From assembly GCF_003473485.1 (NCBI RefSeq), contig NC_053049.1, positions 10,478,001 through 10,542,000 on the forward strand: 64,000 bases of DNA. Reading direction: 5' to 3'. This DNA comes from Medicago truncatula. Lineage: Eukaryota; Streptophyta; Magnoliopsida; Fabales; Fabaceae. Under the pieces are notes generated by a model. It worked only from the letters and a program-made list of their open reading frames with translations. It was not told the DNA's origin and made no database searches. This document shows positions 46,693-55,250 of the stretch, in pieces (position 1 is the stretch's first letter; every line of letters starts with the position of its first letter). Position numbers and translations under genes: made by a program.

Positions 46693-47639
46693 TGGACATG
46701 ACTGATGTTGAACCAACTGATATTGCTAATGTCTAATGATATTTCTTGTTGTGCTGTTGAATCATATTATATTGCTATATCTAGTGACGGCAAAGATTTT
46801 AGGACATATGTGGTAAAATCTTTAGAAAAGACTCCAAGTTGCACACAAGAGCAAGATGGTATTGATATGACTAGCTTTGGTCCTTCTGCATTCAGATTCT
46901 CAAGTGTGGCTTTATTTATTCAAGTGTGGCTTTATTTATTCATTAAAATGTTAGTAAATAATCTGTACATTTAATTACATTTAGGCATTTATCTATAACT
47001 TATAGTTATCCTTGGGATATTGAGCATTTAGACATTTTAAAAATATGTTACCCACTCACTGAATTTCAAGACACATGTTACTCATTATTGGATTCTCTAA
47101 CACGCTAGCTTACTAACATGCAAGTTGTGATGAAACAAATTCCCCTTTTTCTCTTCATGAAACAATTTCTCTCTCATTTCTGACTGCTACTATTCATATT
47201 ACTAACTTGCAATTCCATTTATGACCTCTTTTTGACACAATGTCAACATTCATTAAACATGTTAGAGATTGATACTTTGTCTCTCTGATTTTGATCTTAA
47301 TTCAGCTGTCAGTTTTATGAATGTCATTTTGATACTATCAAACTCCAATTACTAAAGTTGCATGGAAACACTTCCAAGTGTTATATTTCAGGGACCAATT
47401 TGGCTTTTTATCATCAATTTCACAGTGCAATTTGCACAAAAGTGTTAAATTTGAGGGGGTATTTACATATTTCAAGGTAGGCGAGGTTATTTACCCTTGA
47501 AAGATAATAAATCCAGCAATCTTTTTTCTTAAAAAAATATGCAAATACTCCCCTATGACGTGGCATAACCTTCAAAACATGTGGCACTATTAGGTCGATA
47601 GTTAACGACCACATCATACTCTCAAACGGCGAAAACTAA

Positions 47640-47757
47640 CGGAGGGACTGAGTGGCAGAAGCTTAGCAAATTTTGGGGGATTTTTGCTATTTTGCAGATT
47701 TAAGGGAAGTATTCGAGTGAAGATACAAATTCAAGGAGGTGATTGGCTATTCACTCC
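47640..47757. repeat. Fragment of the 'gtgaatagtcaat' repeat family
   Basis: Reverse complemented, it starts ggagtgaatagccaatcacc and later has ctccgttag, the same order as 20897-21095. The full element may extend left to about 47395. Confidence 0.4.
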
Positions 47758-49528
47758 TTCAAACAAATGATAACTTTAGGAAGAAAAAAAAAATCAATAT
47801 CAATTCTTCATCTTATTGTGGAAATCTAGAAATCCTAAATCATCTTCTTTAATTGTTCAATTTTATAAGTGGTGTGGAGTGAATCTTTGAAATGGCGGTC
47901 TTCCCATTTGGGAGACCCGACCATATGGTTCTCTAGCATCTAGATAGTATGGAAAACTAGAGATGCTATGCGTTCTTTATTCTGCTGCGTATTACGGACC
48001 ACGTTACCTATTGAGCAAGGAGCAGCATTTCAACTCTCGAGTACTTGAGAGATCATGATGTTTCTTTTCAGGAACTTTATGTTCTTTCACTGTTGGATTG
48101 GTCTGTGGTTTGCTGATGTAGCTTTGATGTGTCTTAGAGTGGAGTCGATGGTAGCATAAAGGTTAAGTTGAAATCTACAAAATTATGCAGTATATGATGT
48201 TATACATTAATGAGGGGAGCTAGTAGTGATATTCACAATGTATGGCAAGGAGCTGCAGATTTTCTTCTGCAGAATTTTGCAGTAAATGGGCTGGTTGTAG
48301 GTGCTTTGAGGTAATGCCATGTTGTGGGTTGGGAGTGATTTTCTGCTGAACAATAAAGTTTTAGTCTTGTTATAGGTGCTGTCTAAAACTAGGAAGCTTT
48401 GTTTTGGCATGCTTAAGTGTTCAAGGATGATGTTGGAGCTTAGGAAGCTTTGTGTATTAGAGGTTTAGATTGTTTTTGGTGATTGGTGTTGTAATGTTTC
48501 TCTACTTTTTCATTGTACTCTTTTTGCTCCACTCTTTGCACACCTTGTGTCTAGTGTAGTTGGTGGTAATATATTTCGCTCTATTTTTATATTTATACTA
48601 TTAAGATGTAGTACTTAAGGTAACTTTGAACAATCAACTAAATAACATTACATTGTTCGAGTGGAGTTGGACTCAAATCTTTTAAGCAAGATCTCGAGTT
48701 TGAGTCTTGGGGATGAAAAAAAAATGATTAGAAGGGGAGGCCCCAGTAAAAGTAGCCAATCAGGTTCTCTGACAAAGATTATTCGTCGAAAAAGTTAGTG
48801 AATACTTCACACCAATAACATGACTACCCAAAAAACACACCCTCTAAATGAAAAATATATTATATCTATCCAACTTATTTTACTTAATATTTTATAAATG
48901 TTGAATTTCACCCTTTTGAAATTTGATAATACTTGCATAACATATAATGAAGTTGGACATGGTCCCTATTTGACAAATTTAACTCTATTGTTGCAACAAT
49001 TTAAAACGTGTACTATTTGATGCCTTGTCTTATATTATAGCAAGTTGTAGCACAAGTTAGTGTACAGGCACAACACTTCAGCTTGCTATCAAATTAAACA
49101 AACAAATCAAGCACTACGCAGTAAAAAAAAACTACACAGTTAACAATCTTTTTTGTATTTAATTAAGCCGTAACCTTTGTTCCAATTTTAGCTTGTCAAG
49201 GGTTGAACATGATCGAAAAATGCATACTTGTTCTCAAAGTGACAGTATGTATTGAGATCCCTCAGGGGTACAAATTACAATACTAGTGTACTTCCATCCA
49301 ATCCAATTCCAGAATTATTTGTGTGCATATTTATGACATATGATAATCTATACCAGGTAGTATCTAAATAATGTATAAATAGAAGTAACCACAAGTTTTA
49401 AAATATATTTTATACAAATAAAGACCTTATAAGACAACTGATAAATATTCTCAGCTGTATGCAGACCTTTCTCTATAATGAGAATACATTTAATGTCTAG
49501 ATTGTTGATAATTCTGTATCAGCCAGTA

Positions 49529-50716
49529 TCATCTGAATGGGGAGTAAGGCTTTATGCACATTACCTCTTCTTCCTTTATGCAAACATCGCCTCTATGAGA
49601 CTTGAATAACTCTAATGCTAAAGGTGTCACTCGAGCACAACCATTCAAGTACAAAATGGAGAGACTTCTGCAACCGTCTCGTAACGCCCGCAAGCCATTA
49701 TCAGTAAGATTGAGGCATCGATTCACATGCAGTCTCTTCAAATTCTGGCAATATAACCCCACTGCTTGCCATCCAGATATACTCACCTCATGACATAATG
49801 CTAAGTTCCATTCTTCAAGTAGTGTACATCCCTTGGCTATTGCAATAATAGAAGCATCAGAAACTGATCTACACATTCGAAAGTTTAGGATTTTGAGGCT
49901 TGAGGAAAATCCTATTCCACGCAAGGGATCTCCTGAAGGTGACCAACTTAAGCAAGATACATCTAGATGCTCTATTCCGCCACCGCTAACAATTCCGACT
50001 ACCCCTTCTAGGCTAAGTTTACAAGACTCGGCCTCTACGTGTACGAGAGATTTGGAACACCCTTCGAATCCAACGCCACTTATACGCTCACAGTGTGATA
50101 CGTTAATAGCTTGAAGCTGGCGACACTGCTGAGTAAGAGCTTTCAACCCTTTGTCAGATATTTGTGAGCAGTATGACAGGTTTATGCATTTCAAAGATAA
50201 GCAAGCAGTGGTTAAAGTCTCTAATCCTTCATCAGTAATGATAAGACACCGATAGAGACTAATTGTTGTCAATGAGGGGCAACCAGAAGCAACTAGGGAT
50301 AGCCCGTAGTTAGTGACTTTCAAACAACAATCCAGATTAAGTTTTTGTAAATTTGAACCGTAGCTTAGCAAACGGGTTAGTCCTGAATCATCGAGCTCCG
50401 TGCAACCACATAGAGATAAAGACTCTAAATGTTGAAAGCGCCTTAGCAACCTATGAATATGGACGGTGTAAACATCAAGACCCTTAGCAGACAAAGAGGA
50501 AGGGTTTAATATACTAAATGAACACTCAAATTGCAGAGTCCGACGGTTGAAATTTTGGATACGGAGCCATCGGCGGCAAGTCAAGCCAAATGATTCACGA
50601 TCAGTACGACAATCTAAACCATGAAAAATAATAGTAAGGCAGTCATCTGGTAAGTGCGTGATGGAGGTAGCGCCAAGTTTGGAAAGATCTTCCATGTCAA
50701 CCTTTTCAAGACTCAT
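49529..50716 (-). CDS. FBL12: F-box/LRR-repeat protein, FBL12 type
   Basis: Single-exon ORF of 395 codons. The F-box lies at about residues 16-55 (ATSITHLPDDCLTIIFHGLDC, FGLTCRRW) and is followed by about ten AMN1-type leucine-rich repeats of the form LxxLxLxxCxxLTDxGL (for example LESLSLCGCTELDDSGL, LQKLNLDCCLKVTNYGL, LKRLHVNRCLNLTDNGL). Such proteins are substrate receptors of SCF (SKP1-Cullin-F-box) ubiquitin ligases. Wording and length match Arabidopsis F-box/LRR-repeat protein 12 as remembered. The first ATG (50716) lies within the last codons of the upstream ORF, overlapping it by 11 nt in another frame; the second Met (50695, MEDLSKLG) lies just past that ORF's stop. There is no room for an ordinary promoter outside the upstream gene. 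Confidence 0.9.
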   Translation of the reverse strand: MSLEKVDMEDLSKLGATSITHLPDDCLTIIFHGLDCRTDRESFGLTCRRWLRIQNFNRRTLQFECSFSILNPSSLSAKGLDVYTVHIHRLLRRFQHLESLSLCGCTELDDSGLTRLLSYGSNLQKLNLDCCLKVTNYGLSLVASGCPSLTTISLYRCLIITDEGLETLTTACLSLKCINLSYCSQISDKGLKALTQQCRQLQAINVSHCERISGVGFEGCSKSLVHVEAESCKLSLEGVVGIVSGGGIEHLDVSCLSWSPSGDPLRGIGFSSSLKILNFRMCRSVSDASIIAIAKGCTLLEEWNLALCHEVSISGWQAVGLYCQNLKRLHVNRCLNLTDNGLRALRDGCRSLSILYLNGCARVTPLALELFKSHRGDVCIKEEEVMCIKPYSPFR

Positions 50717-52549
50717 CTGAAGAAGGCTGTAATGATCGAATCTTTACGGTGAATTTTGTCAGAGAGCCAGGTGAAATGGAAGGCTCACATCCACAAAGTG
50801 CAGGTGATTCTCTACTATAACCATAACCAATATGAACCCCACATTTGCGGCAAAGCAGTTTAGTCTTTGAACGAGACAACCATGAGACTGGAAAACAATT
50901 TATTTCATCAACCTGTGTAAAACGGCTGAGATCAACTGAAGAAAAGGAGATTGATCCTTTATTAACAGACTTTTGGTATTCTGATGCAATGTTAGATGTG
51001 ATACGATTTGAAGATGTCAATTTCAGAGGGTATCCACAAGAGCCGCAGCTGCAGTGGACACCAAAATCTCAAAATACAATTAAAACAAAACTATAGAACA
51101 AAACAATAGAATAAATCATGGATTTTTCAAAAATAAGAACAACATCCCATGTCAAGTCAGAAAAATTCAGCATGCTGAGCGTTCGTTAATTCTTTCATTA
51201 TATACTATAACTATTACCATATAATGCTAATTAGTAGATTTTTGTCTTCCAAGCTTAACATGTTACATCATATCATAATTATCATTTGTAATTTTTCATT
51301 TATTCATGACCCCTTACATCCATAAAAGTGCTAGAGTCCCCACTTCTACAATTTCATCCATCCTTACCCTTCTGAAATTTCAATATTTTCAAACCGAAAA
51401 TCAACTCTTCATCCCATACATTGCAAGATTTTGATTTCTAAATGTTGAAGCCCATTACCCGAAAAAGGAACTAGCAAGACACACACAAGAGCCAAAAATA
51501 AAAAGGAAAAGATAGCCAGATAATCTTCAAGTTCTAACGACGCATACAAACACGACAAAAGCAGTAACCAACTAAAAAAAAAAATCACAATATGCATTTT
51601 CATGTCAGCATAAACTGAACACTAGGAAGTTAGAAAATAATTAAAAAAAGGTCAGCAACATCCAAGGTTTTAAATAACGGTTGTGGCCGTAACAGTGTTT
51701 CGTCGCAGCTGTAATGTCGTTTCGTCGTGATTTTTGTTCACTCTGTAAAAACAGTGAAAAACAGTAATGTCGGCTACCTATACCACCTTTTTGTCACGGC
51801 CTTTTTCTCAGTAACGGACCGTATTTTAAAACCTTGGCAACATCATACTAGGAGAAAGGTATGCCTATGTCTTGTAGTGTAAGCACTACTTTGATCATGT
51901 TTCTAGACTTTTGTTGAATTGAACCTTAACAAAGTTTAGATAATTAGATTCGTCTTGTATTGTAAACAGAACCATAGTAAGGCTATGTTAGGATAAACAA
52001 CTTAATTAAATGCTTATGCTATAAGCTTCTATTGCATGGACAAAAATAAAATAAAATAAGTCAAATTGTTTTGATACAAGTTATATGATGTTTTCATAAG
52101 CTATCCTGAACTTGTGGAAATAAGCTGAAAGCATATTACCATAAACTCTCTCAAACAGACTAACAAGAGCTTATATTCAGACAGTAACACACATTTCAGT
52201 TGACAACAATGAAGCACAAACACACCTTGGATTAGGTGTGTCCAGGTGTCGAATACGTATGTGTCCGACACATGTGATTAAATTGAATTATATCATTTCT
52301 CAAATTATTATCAGCTTCGGTATCGGTGTCTCGTGTTCTGTGTCGTGCTTCATAGGTTGTGAAAGATATCATAATATCTAACCTCAGAATAACACACGTG
52401 TAAAAACATTCAGAACCGTGAAAGCATTCAAAATCACGTGAATTAAGCAACAAGGAAAAAAAAAAACATAATAAGCAGCAAAAAACAAAAGCGAAAAGAA
52501 AGAAGAGGGAGTTGTTAGCATACCAGTAAGAGACATAAGTTTGTGACAT
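50706..52549 (-). CDS. Small zinc-ribbon-like protein, At4g08330 type
   Basis: Two exons, 52524-52549 (MSQTYVSY plus two bases) and 50706-51048, joined by donor TACTG/gtatgc and acceptor actgcag/CTGCGG, giving 122 residues. The N-terminus MSQTYVSYCCGSCGYPLKL is followed by SSNRITSNIASEYQKSVNKGSISF, VDLSRFTQVDEINCFPVSW, KLLCRKCGVHIGYGY and KIRSLQPSSDES. It matches the family of Arabidopsis At4g08330, annotated as a chloroplast protein of unknown function. Two CxxC pairs (CGSC and CRKC) suggest a zinc ribbon. The stop TGA at 50706-50708 lies 8 nt past the ATG of the FBL12-like ORF, and the C-terminal SSDES matches the family's normal end, so the two ORFs are not an accidental split of one protein. 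Confidence 0.88.
51663..51836. mobile_element. hAT-type MITE with 8-bp target duplication
   Basis: The 174-bp element begins CAAGGTTTTAAATAACGG and ends CCGTATTTTAAAACCTTG. The 8-bp repeat gcaacatc flanks it exactly at 51655-51662 and 51837-51844. TIR plus an 8-bp duplication is typical of hAT elements. It lies in the intron of the At4g08330-type gene. Confidence 0.85.
51981..52190. mobile_element. MITE, GGGCNTGTTTGGAT family (diverged)
   Basis: Starts ggctatgttaggataaacaacttaatt and carries the family's internal words (aagtcaaattgttttg, ttttcataagctatcc, ctctcaaacagactaacaagagc). The right end is diverged, so its limit is approximate. Confidence 0.5.
52216..52362. repeat. Dispersed MITE, 'atgaagcac..gtgtc' family, copy 4
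   Basis: Read on the plus strand it has ccttggattaggtgtgtcc, gtgtccgacacatgtg, a tttctcaaattattatc core and ends gtgcttcataggttgt. It is in opposite orientation to 18994-19120, with which it agrees best. Confidence 0.55.
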
Positions 52550-52904
52550 CCTTCAGTGGTTGAAATTGCAATCGCCATGTTCATCCATTATAACTCTGAT
52601 TTTGTTGTTGAAAAAGAAAGAGAAAATTGAGGAATATCACCTTTCTTCCTTACTTGTCAATTCCATTTTCCGTGTCGATCGATTCTTTCTTTGCTTCTTT
52701 TCTAACTCTTACCTAAATTCCATAAATAAATGTCACTCGGTTTGGTTTTGTTTTTAATAAATTCAACACAAACACGTAAGCAAACAAAAAATAACAATAG
52801 TCGGTCCTGTTTTTAAGGTAGAGTTTAATCTTTATACGTCAACTGTAACATTATTTATTTTACAGATTAAATAGTGCCACAATTATTCCCGGCGTGTAAC
52901 ATGA

Positions 52905-52997
52905 GCTCGGTTGATTGTGATATTGTAAAATGTATGTAGAAGATGAGTTCGAACTTCCACTTTAAAATGAATTTCTAATTATTAAACAATTTGATAA
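52905..52997 (+). mobile_element. Probable tRNA-derived SINE
   Basis: Box A-like gagctcggttgattgtg, box B-like gagttcgaacttcc about 45 bp later, and a terminal A run near 52996-53004. Target repeats were not found, so the limits are approximate. Confidence 0.45.
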
Positions 52998-53074
52998 AAA
53001 AAAAACACTAACAATGTATATAAATTAAATCTTTTTAATATTGGTTTTAATTAAAAAAAATGCTATATATTTGG

Positions 53075-53270
53075 AAGAAAGTCTTGGTTGGACACAAACC
53101 TAACACTTTAATTTTGGGCACACACAGAAAAGCAAGAAAAAGTTAATAGAAAATAAAATTATAATATATCAAATGATTTGATTAAATACTTTTTATTTAA
53201 TTTTGTTAGTTTTGTGTGAGTATATGCCCAAAATTGAGATGTTGGGTATGTGCCCAAGGAAGACTTTCTC
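53075..53270. mobile_element. Mutator-type foldback MITE with 10-bp direct repeats
   Basis: Starts AAGAAAGTCTTGGTTGGACAC and ends GTGCCCAAGGAAGACTTTCTC. The inverted repeats cover about 50 bp (including attttgggca against tgcccaaaat). The 10-bp repeat atatatttgg flanks it at 53065-53074 and 53271-53280. It is non-coding, 196 bp. Confidence 0.75.
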
Positions 53271-54096
53271 ATATATTTGGTTAGACACGTGAATAAAATA
53301 TTTTATATCATGGGTGTATATAAATTAAATTCTTTAAATTTTACTTGTTAACAAGTACATACACATTCTTGTCAAAACAATTGAAGAGTATGAGAAATTT
53401 GGAAGAATGATGGTAATTGATATATTTTCTAAATTTGGAATGGAATCTGCCTCTCAATAAAAATTGGAATGGAATTTCAACACACCTAAGAGATAATTAT
53501 ATTTATTTATGTAGAGATTCAATGAATCAATATACATGGTGTTAACATCAATCCTCATAAGAACAAAATATAACATTGGTTTTCATCTCTTGTCATTATA
53601 TTTTTTATGATAAATTTAAAATATTTTCCTCAAACGATGAATCGTTGAAGAAATTCGAGTTTAATTTTTGTTTGGAACCGGGGATTAATAAAAAAAGACA
53701 TGTTTTATAATCTAATTATTGGAATACCGTAATGGTGCCACTCTTAGTCCTGCTTCATTTTTCTAGTATTGTTGAATGAAAGTAATTTGAGCTAGATTTT
53801 TCTATACTGACTATCTTAAAACTCCAAGCTGAGCTAGATTTTGAGGTGAAACTTTTCTTTCCACCTTCACATTGTGTAATTCCTCCAAGGATTTTCCTAT
53901 CCTCATTGTTGACAGGAGAATAACTGAAGGTTGATGTTGTTAACAAGCTTACCAGGCTTGTTAACTTTTTATACTCAAGCGATTCGCTTGTTGAATACCA
54001 CAAACCAGCAATATGTTATAGAAATTCAATGACCATATCATGCTTTTTTTTTTCTTTTTTTCTTTTTGAGCACTATACATTAGTAAAGTTACATCA

Positions 54097-55250
54097 TCTT
54101 CTTATATATTAAAGTTAACAAGTAAGCCCTAATTTTAACCTAAACCCTATTGCATAATTTTACTGTTTTAACCCTAATGTTCACACCTAATCTCCTATTT
54201 TCATGAACAATCTTCTTATATATTAAAGTTAACATGTAAGCCCTAATTTAAACCTAAACCCTATTGCATAATTTTACTGTTTTAACCCTAATGTTCACAC
54301 CTAATCTCCTATTTTCACGAACAATCCTAATGCTCTCTCCTAATCTTCTTATATATTAAAGTTAACAAGTAAGCCCTAATTTTAACCTAAACCCTATTGC
54401 ATAATTTTACTGTTTTAACCCTAATGTTCACACCTAATCTCCTATTTTCATGAAAAATACTAATGCTCTCTCCTAATCTTTTTATATATTAAAGTTAACA
54501 AGTAAGCCCTAATTTTAACCTAAATCCTATTGCATAATTTTACTGTTTTAACCCTAATGTTCACACCTAATCTCCTATTTTCATGAACAATCTTCTTATA
54601 TATTAAAGTTAACATGTAAGCCCTAATTTTAACCTAAACCCTATTGCATAATTTTACTATTTTAACCCTAATGTTCACACCTAATCTCCTATTTTCACGA
54701 ACAATCCTAATGCTCTCTCCTAATCTTCTTATATATTAAAGTTAACAAGTAAGCCCTAATTTTAACCTAAACCCTATTGCATAATTTTACTGTTTTAACC
54801 CTAATGTTCACACCTAATCTCCTATTTTCATGAACAATCCTATTGCTCTCACCTAATCTTCTTATATATTAAAGGTAACCCGTAAGCCCTAATTTTAACC
54901 TAAATCCTATTGCATAATTTTACCGTTTTAACCCTAATGCTCACACCTAATCTTATATTTTCATGAACAACCCTAATGCTCACACCTAATCTCATATTTT
55001 CATGAGCCCTAATTTTAACCTAAACCCTGTTGCATAATTTTACCGTTTTAACCGTAATGCTCACACCTAATCTTATATTTTCATGAACAACCCTAATGCT
55101 CACACCTAATCTCATATTTTCATGAGCCCTAATTTTAACCTAAACCCTGTTGCATAATTTTACCATTTTAACCCTAATGCTCACACCTAATCTTCTATTT
55201 TCATGAACAACACTAATGCTCACACCTAATCTCCTATTTTCATGAACAAA
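54097..55250. repeat. Tandem repeat array with higher-order structure
   Basis: Units carry tcttcttatatattaaagtt, gtaagccctaatttta, acctaaaccctattgcataa, ctgttttaaccctaatg and ttcacacctaatctcctatt. The start word tct(t/t)cttatatattaaag occurs at 54097, 54211, 54344, 54477, 54591, 54724 and 54857, giving spacings 114, 133, 133, 114, 133, 133. This is an exact 380-bp higher-order repeat present twice, then diverged units without the start word to about 55250. Confidence 0.9.

Follow-up and report, generated by a model that had tools for sequence, protein, structure and literature searches.

In Arabidopsis, the TIGR reannotation described at least 20 mRNAs spanning two adjacent genes, several of which were accompanied by single-gene cDNAs, and its authors suggested that they could correspond to failures of transcription termination while leaving room for a role of these molecules (PMC1082884). 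A different situation has been described for bicistronic nuclear genes of green algae, where, according to the report on them, leaky scanning past the weak start of ORF 1 gives access to ORF 2, whose expression is lowered by AUGs placed in good context (PMC11892635). A third group is formed by the genes with conserved-peptide uORFs together with HG8 and HG30, two putative plant dicistronic families, in which a conserved protein ORF is found upstream of an unrelated main ORF (PMC3426882).

In this work we have analyzed a pair of genes from Medicago truncatula, both encoded on the minus strand of a window of 64,000 nucleotides (NC_053049.1, bases 10478001-10542000, contig C8), against the background of the whole genome (429.9 Mb in 42 contigs). 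The upstream gene, hereafter gene A, is of the At4g08330 type and the downstream one is an F-box/LRR ORF. Like the Arabidopsis two-gene mRNAs (PMC1082884), the Medicago pair consists of adjacent genes with two ORFs and stop codons between them; unlike those cDNA-based cases, it is known from DNA alone, and its ORFs are either spaced by 10 nt or overlapped by 11 nt. With the green-algal genes (PMC11892635) it shares the presence of two ORFs, which in algae are often in different frames and sometimes separated by short spacers, but it differs from them in that 10 AUGs precede ORF 2 (for an assumed 5' end) and exon 2 of gene A is not poor in AUGs; the sequence did not clearly point to selection for scanning across gene A, in contrast to the algal pairs. 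As in the conserved-peptide uORF genes and in HG8 and HG30 (PMC3426882), the main ORF is preceded here by an unrelated, conserved protein ORF; the Medicago pair is set apart from them by the lack, in its own genome, of any F-box/LRR match within 300 kb of the four other loci of gene A among the 81 matches listed (105 of 277 candidates scored).

Results

Layout of the Gene Pair

Two unrelated and complete-looking genes abut at this locus with hardly any DNA between them (Table 1), which we consider firm. The preliminary description of this DNA had placed the TGA of gene A at 50708-50706 and the first ATG of the F-box ORF at 50716-50714, on the same strand and in different frames, with a second Met codon at 50695 and an intron of 1.5 kb in the upstream gene; these positions were correct (the second Met occupying 50695-50693), and the intron measured 1475 nt (52523-51049). 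The same-strand overlap drawn from them stood only in part, as 11 nt are shared when the first F-box ATG is used, whereas a gap of 10 nt is left when the second Met, in better context, is taken as the start. Because an overlap of the coding sequences requires the first ATG, whose context is weak (cagATGa, with C at -3 and A at +4), as against the strong second one (gacATGg, with G at both -3 and +4), we regard such overlap as doubtful, a gap being the likelier arrangement. The border between DNA derived from gene A and DNA derived from the F-box gene would fall within approximately 50708-50696.

Table 1. Features of the gene A and F-box/LRR pair (positions in the window).
Feature	Position	Strand	Remarks
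Upstream ORF MDEHGDCNFNH plus stop	52553..52588	-	11 codons, strong context, frame of gene A, ends 3 nt before the ATG of gene A
Gene A exon 1, coding part	52524..52549	-	MSQTYVSY plus 2 bases of a Cys codon; donor CTG/GTATGC after 52524
Gene A intron 1	51049..52523	-	1475 nt, phase 2
Gene A exon 2	50706..51048	-	ends in LQPSSDES and stop, TGA 50708-50706
CAG adjoining the first F-box ATG	50717..50719	-	possible 3' splice site, would skip exon 2 of gene A
F-box/LRR (FBL12-type) ORF from the first Met	49529..50716	-	395 aa, intronless ORF
Spacer, TGA of gene A to preferred F-box ATG	50696..50705	-	10 nt
Second in-frame F-box ATG	50693..50695	-	strong context gacATGg; preferred start, 388 aa

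A gap in the assembly at 50700, which the preliminary description had mentioned as a circumstance that would undo the arrangement, was not borne out: the 301 bases from 50600 to 50900 were placed only once in the assembly, at their own position, and the window contained no N. Both ORFs are open, and no second close copy of the F-box gene was present among the matches scored; in addition, exon 2 of gene A displayed dN values of 0.40 and 0.49 vs. a dS of about 2.1 (saturated) with respect to two of three paralogs (dS not being computable for the third one), which argues against a dead copy. No observation spoke for a misassembly or a dead copy at 50700, and this is the most improbable of all the explanations that we have considered.

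Gene A and Its Paralogs

The spliced protein of gene A (122 residues) matched the Pfam family PF24046, "At4g08330 beta-tent", with 145.2 bits (cut-off 27) and covered positions 3-129 of the 129 positions of the profile, thus belonging to this family; exon 2 alone reached 137.1 bits (E 4.5e-40). Comparison of exon 2 with the PDB returned 16 matches up to E 1, none of them meaningful (best E 0.15), and single-sequence structure prediction yielded mean pLDDT values too poor for use (exon 2, 37.0; F-box protein, 55.8).

Relatives of gene A were found at four other loci of the genome, three with clear similarity (57, 61, and 45% identity) and a weak fourth (36%, E 8.9e-4). The position and phase 2 of intron 1 were common to the paralogs on contigs C1 (1946 nt) and C3 (1316 nt), whose introns were proposed by pattern; in gene A the intron falls just 5' of a CGxCGY motif, as it does, also by pattern, in these two paralogs. 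The intron comparison covered the C1, C3, and second C8 paralogs rather than the weak relative on contig C5, and exon 1 of the second C8 paralog (at 43.7 Mb) was not found by pattern search. Using an approximate plant matrix, the donor of exon 1 of gene A ranked third among the 225 GT sites present on the same strand in 49500-53200.

Both proteins had been described previously as complete and conserved to their ends. For gene A this was true of the domain, but its last residues vary among paralogs: in the alignment with three of them the conserved part runs to QPSS, which is followed by DES and the stop in gene A, by SDESGIPVLA in the C1 paralog, by SQECGNGISVLA in the C3 paralog, and by an immediate stop in the second C8 copy. 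From this alignment of the tails, the final codons of gene A, which lie beneath the first F-box ATG, look to be of gene A origin. At the other end, a longer exon 1 opening with MDN is present in the C1 and C3 paralogs, with a start similar to that of the MDEHGDCNFNH upstream ORF; since these paralogs begin at a similar place, the N-terminus of gene A may have been truncated by a stop codon, or else the 11-codon ORF may act as a regulatory uORF.

The interior of exon 2 presented, on the minus strand, a good acceptor-like site (4.09), which would open an exon at 50935, and a donor-like site (2.96) after 50913; as these sites outscore or approach the real ones, exon 2 may have additional splice forms. 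In the intron of gene A, positions 51661-51838 hold an element of 176 bases that has inverted ends (CAAGGTTTTAAA...) and an 8-bp flanking duplication (GCAACATC), for which at least 40 genome matches, its own copy included, were obtained among 66 candidates; by these traits it looks like a hAT-type MITE. Upstream of gene A, a tandem array with units of around 114-133 bases (TCTTATATATTAAAGTTAACA...) extended over 54096-55232, for which higher-order units of 247 and 380 bases are an alternative reading.

The F-box ORF and Its Start Codon

The product of the F-box ORF, which we take to be of the FBL12 type, displayed three LRR families above the Pfam cut-off, including LRR_6 (54.3 bits, cut-off 23.4) and LRR_4 (35.5 bits, cut-off 27). 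F-box families matched residues 19-53 just below their cut-offs (22.0 vs. 24.3 bits for F-box-like and 19.7 vs. 20.5 bits for F-box), and F-box_5 scored 17.7 bits for a cut-off of 25.5. Among solved structures, the protein was related to FBXL2 (E 8.7e-35), FBXL17 (E 1.5e-25), and COI1 (E 3.7e-14), and also to TIR1. Elsewhere in the genome, the best match was 33% identical over 204 query residues, among the 105 of 277 candidates scored. A recent retrocopy of the F-box gene was considered but was not supported, there being no close parent within that same set and no long A-run in the 200 bases past the stop.

The F-box frame is open for merely nine codons above the first ATG (a 404-codon frame for a 395-residue ORF), and for this reason one extra in-frame ATG in that stretch could have arisen by chance and is not remarkable. 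The start of Arabidopsis FBL12 presumably lies near the second Met as well, which provides a lead.

Relatives of the F-box protein and of the gene A alignment were absent from the viral and prokaryote collections searched, as expected for plant genes, and Rfam gave no match at gathering score over 47000-54500. Among the papers listed, judged by titles and the openings of abstracts, none dealt with this gene pair, and no paper was found for At4g08330 or At3g07550.

AUG Content of a Shared mRNA

A spliced dicistronic mRNA was modelled with its 5' end assumed at 52640, the strength of AUGs being assigned by the -3/+4 rule. In this molecule the ORF of gene A has 122 codons and 10 AUGs precede the first F-box ATG (three strong, two adequate, and five weak), so that, for the assumed 5' end, the AUGs before ORF 2 are neither few nor uniformly weak, as leaky scanning would call for. 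Exon 2 contained six ATGs including the F-box one, vs. a mean of 5.0 (sd 1.2) in synonymous shuffles, or 4.6 when the stop codon was omitted. Among the four family members compared, its ATG density was the lowest (1.77 per 100 nt, vs. 1.78 in the C1 paralog and 2.92 and 2.20 in the others), and none of the four, when set against its own shuffles, showed the AUG depletion that would point to leaky scanning. Efficient leaky scanning to the F-box ORF is unlikely because of the 10 upstream AUGs, three of them strong, and because exon 2 is not depleted in AUGs. If the leader were unspliced and began at 51100, it would retain five AUGs ahead of the F-box ORF.

On general grounds, reinitiation is expected to be inefficient once 122 codons have been translated, and it has been described to work best after ORFs of few codons (PMC11892635). 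Translation of the F-box protein from a dicistronic RNA thus looks poor as judged by the composition of the leader. The RNA molecule itself is plausible even if little F-box protein results from it, because gene A lacks an intergenic 3' region of its own.

Candidate Splice Site, Promoter Signs, and 3' Ends

The preliminary description had presented a choice between a dicistronic mRNA and a promoter internal to the upstream gene. The dilemma is real, but it does not require an overlap, as Met 50695 lies 10 nt past the stop of gene A, and a third route was omitted, namely the splicing of exon 1 to CAG/ATG at 50716 without exon 2. The bases immediately 5' of the first F-box ATG (CCTTCTTCAG) form a possible 3' splice site. 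Using approximate plant frequencies instead of a trained matrix, this acceptor scored 1.58 and ranked 12th among the 187 AG sites in 49500-53200, close to the acceptor of gene A itself (1.77, 10th), the acceptors of the paralogs scoring 5.83, 4.68, and 1.82. Scores of at least 1.58 were obtained for 461 of the 6883 AG sites on both strands of the window, that is, about 3.6 per kb per strand or around one per 280 nt. Joining exon 1 to 50716 would leave upstream ORFs of 11, 23, 21, 8, and 7 codons, all of them ending at or before 50706; after that join the ORF in the frame of gene A would have eight codons, and the last base of its TGA would be the first base of the first F-box ATG. The CAG/AT motif is also given by the Ser-Asp codons of gene A, and a similar SSSDES is present in the C1 paralog.

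A leader with its 5' end in intron 1 or exon 2 is just as possible as the spliced one. A single TATAWAW site (51204) was found in the 3.7 kb scanned on the minus strand, fewer than expected from the 1.57 per kb per strand averaged over the window, and we thus see no positive promoter sign inside gene A. The A+T content ranged between 53 and 61% over 50705-49506, from the stop of gene A through the F-box ORF, and then increased to 75% at 49505-49356, and this jump places the first normal-looking 3' region beyond the F-box ORF, probably below 49505. Between the two stops only one of the four poly(A)-like hexamers sought was present (ATTAAA at 50510), and AATAAA occurred twice within exon 2 of gene A. 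Poly(A) signals in plants are loose. The ATTAAA at 50510 could mark an end of the gene A mRNA within the F-box ORF, in which case a dicistronic RNA would not be needed.

Discussion

The explanation that we favor, with slightly more confidence than an even chance, is that of two abutting genes in which the mRNA of gene A is dicistronic as a molecule, the F-box protein being obtained mainly from a second mRNA. RNA from the promoter of gene A would often continue through the F-box ORF into the A+T-rich region below 49505, and the mRNA of gene A would thus carry both ORFs; the second mRNA, from which the F-box protein would chiefly derive, would either start inside gene A (in intron 1 or exon 2) or come from the promoter of gene A by the splice of exon 1 to CAG/50716, and it would be read from Met 50695. 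This is consistent with a gene A whose domain and intron fit its family, with an intact F-box ORF for which the matches scored include no further close copy, with a strong second Met after a weak first one, and with the 7-23-codon size of the only upstream ORFs in an mRNA lacking exon 2. The rise in A+T at 49505-49356 is as expected of a first normal 3' region, and the two-gene mRNAs of Arabidopsis, sometimes found beside single-gene cDNAs, offer a parallel (PMC1082884). Against it, the acceptor at 50716 does not stand out from chance sites and is outscored by 11 nearby AG sites, the single TATAWAW is no positive sign of a promoter, ATTAAA at 50510 could end the mRNA of gene A early, and the unspliced leader from 51100 retains its five AUGs.

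Some of the alternatives share steps with the favored explanation, and the weights that we give to the latter, to the splicing route and to separate transcription overlap and do not add up to one. Ordinary neighbors transcribed separately, with a promoter in intron 1 or exon 2 of gene A, a poly(A) site of gene A inside the F-box ORF, and no dicistronic RNA, are a tentative second choice, clearly less probable than the favored explanation: the contrast between the weak first and the strong second ATG, an overlap that exists only via the former, and the hexamer at 50510 agree with it, and an intron of 1.48 kb would be roomy enough for a promoter, but that length is ordinary for the family, given the 1946 and 1316 nt proposed for two paralogs, and a distinctive promoter was not found. 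The use of a shared promoter with alternative splicing of exon 1 to CAG/ATG at 50716, which is a sub-case of the favored explanation, seems rather unlikely when taken by itself. The acceptor scores nearly as high as that of gene A (1.58 vs. 1.77), the donor of exon 1 ranks third out of 225, and the join leaves only short upstream ORFs; nevertheless, acceptors scoring as well are common (461/6883), those of two of the three paralogs score far higher (5.83 and 4.68), and the Ser-Asp codons, with SSSDES in the C1 paralog, already account for CAG/AT.

Less probable still would be a true dicistronic expression, in which one mRNA yields the F-box protein by reinitiation 10 nt past the stop of gene A or by leaky scanning. 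The very short spacer and the strong context of 50695 speak for it, as do the green-algal pairs, for which leaky scanning has been described, together with a working reporter whose 14-nt inter-ORF spacer was taken from one of the natural pairs (PMC11892635). By AUG content, dicistronic translation is nonetheless the least favored route, given 10 upstream AUGs of which three are strong, a first ORF of 122 codons (for the assumed 5' end), an exon 2 without ATG depletion with respect to its shuffles, and the lowering of algal ORF 2 by upstream AUGs in good context (PMC11892635). An operon-like unit can also be conceived, in which a single promoter would serve the beta-tent protein and the F-box protein, the latter as a substrate receptor, for joint action in protein degradation, with a switch consisting either of reinitiation across the 10 nt or of exon 2 being kept for gene A and skipped for the F-box protein; we consider it improbable, more so than dicistronic expression as such. 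The beta-tent fold is also present in cereblon, an E3 ligase receptor, and the pairing of such a domain with an F-box protein gives no more than a loose hint of function.

A dicistronic mRNA and an internal promoter had both been called unusual in plants. Near-zero intergenic DNA is uncommon, but plant precedents exist. For annotation it carries a warning, as the overlap of the two coding sequences depends on picking a first ATG of weak context. If the RNA is shared, the pair would constitute a clean natural test of how a second long ORF is accessed in a flowering plant, with two unrelated full-length proteins and a spacer of 10 nt; if the transcripts are separate, it would show a limit of intergenic shrinkage, with a promoter or a splice site buried in the intron or in the coding exon of the neighboring gene.
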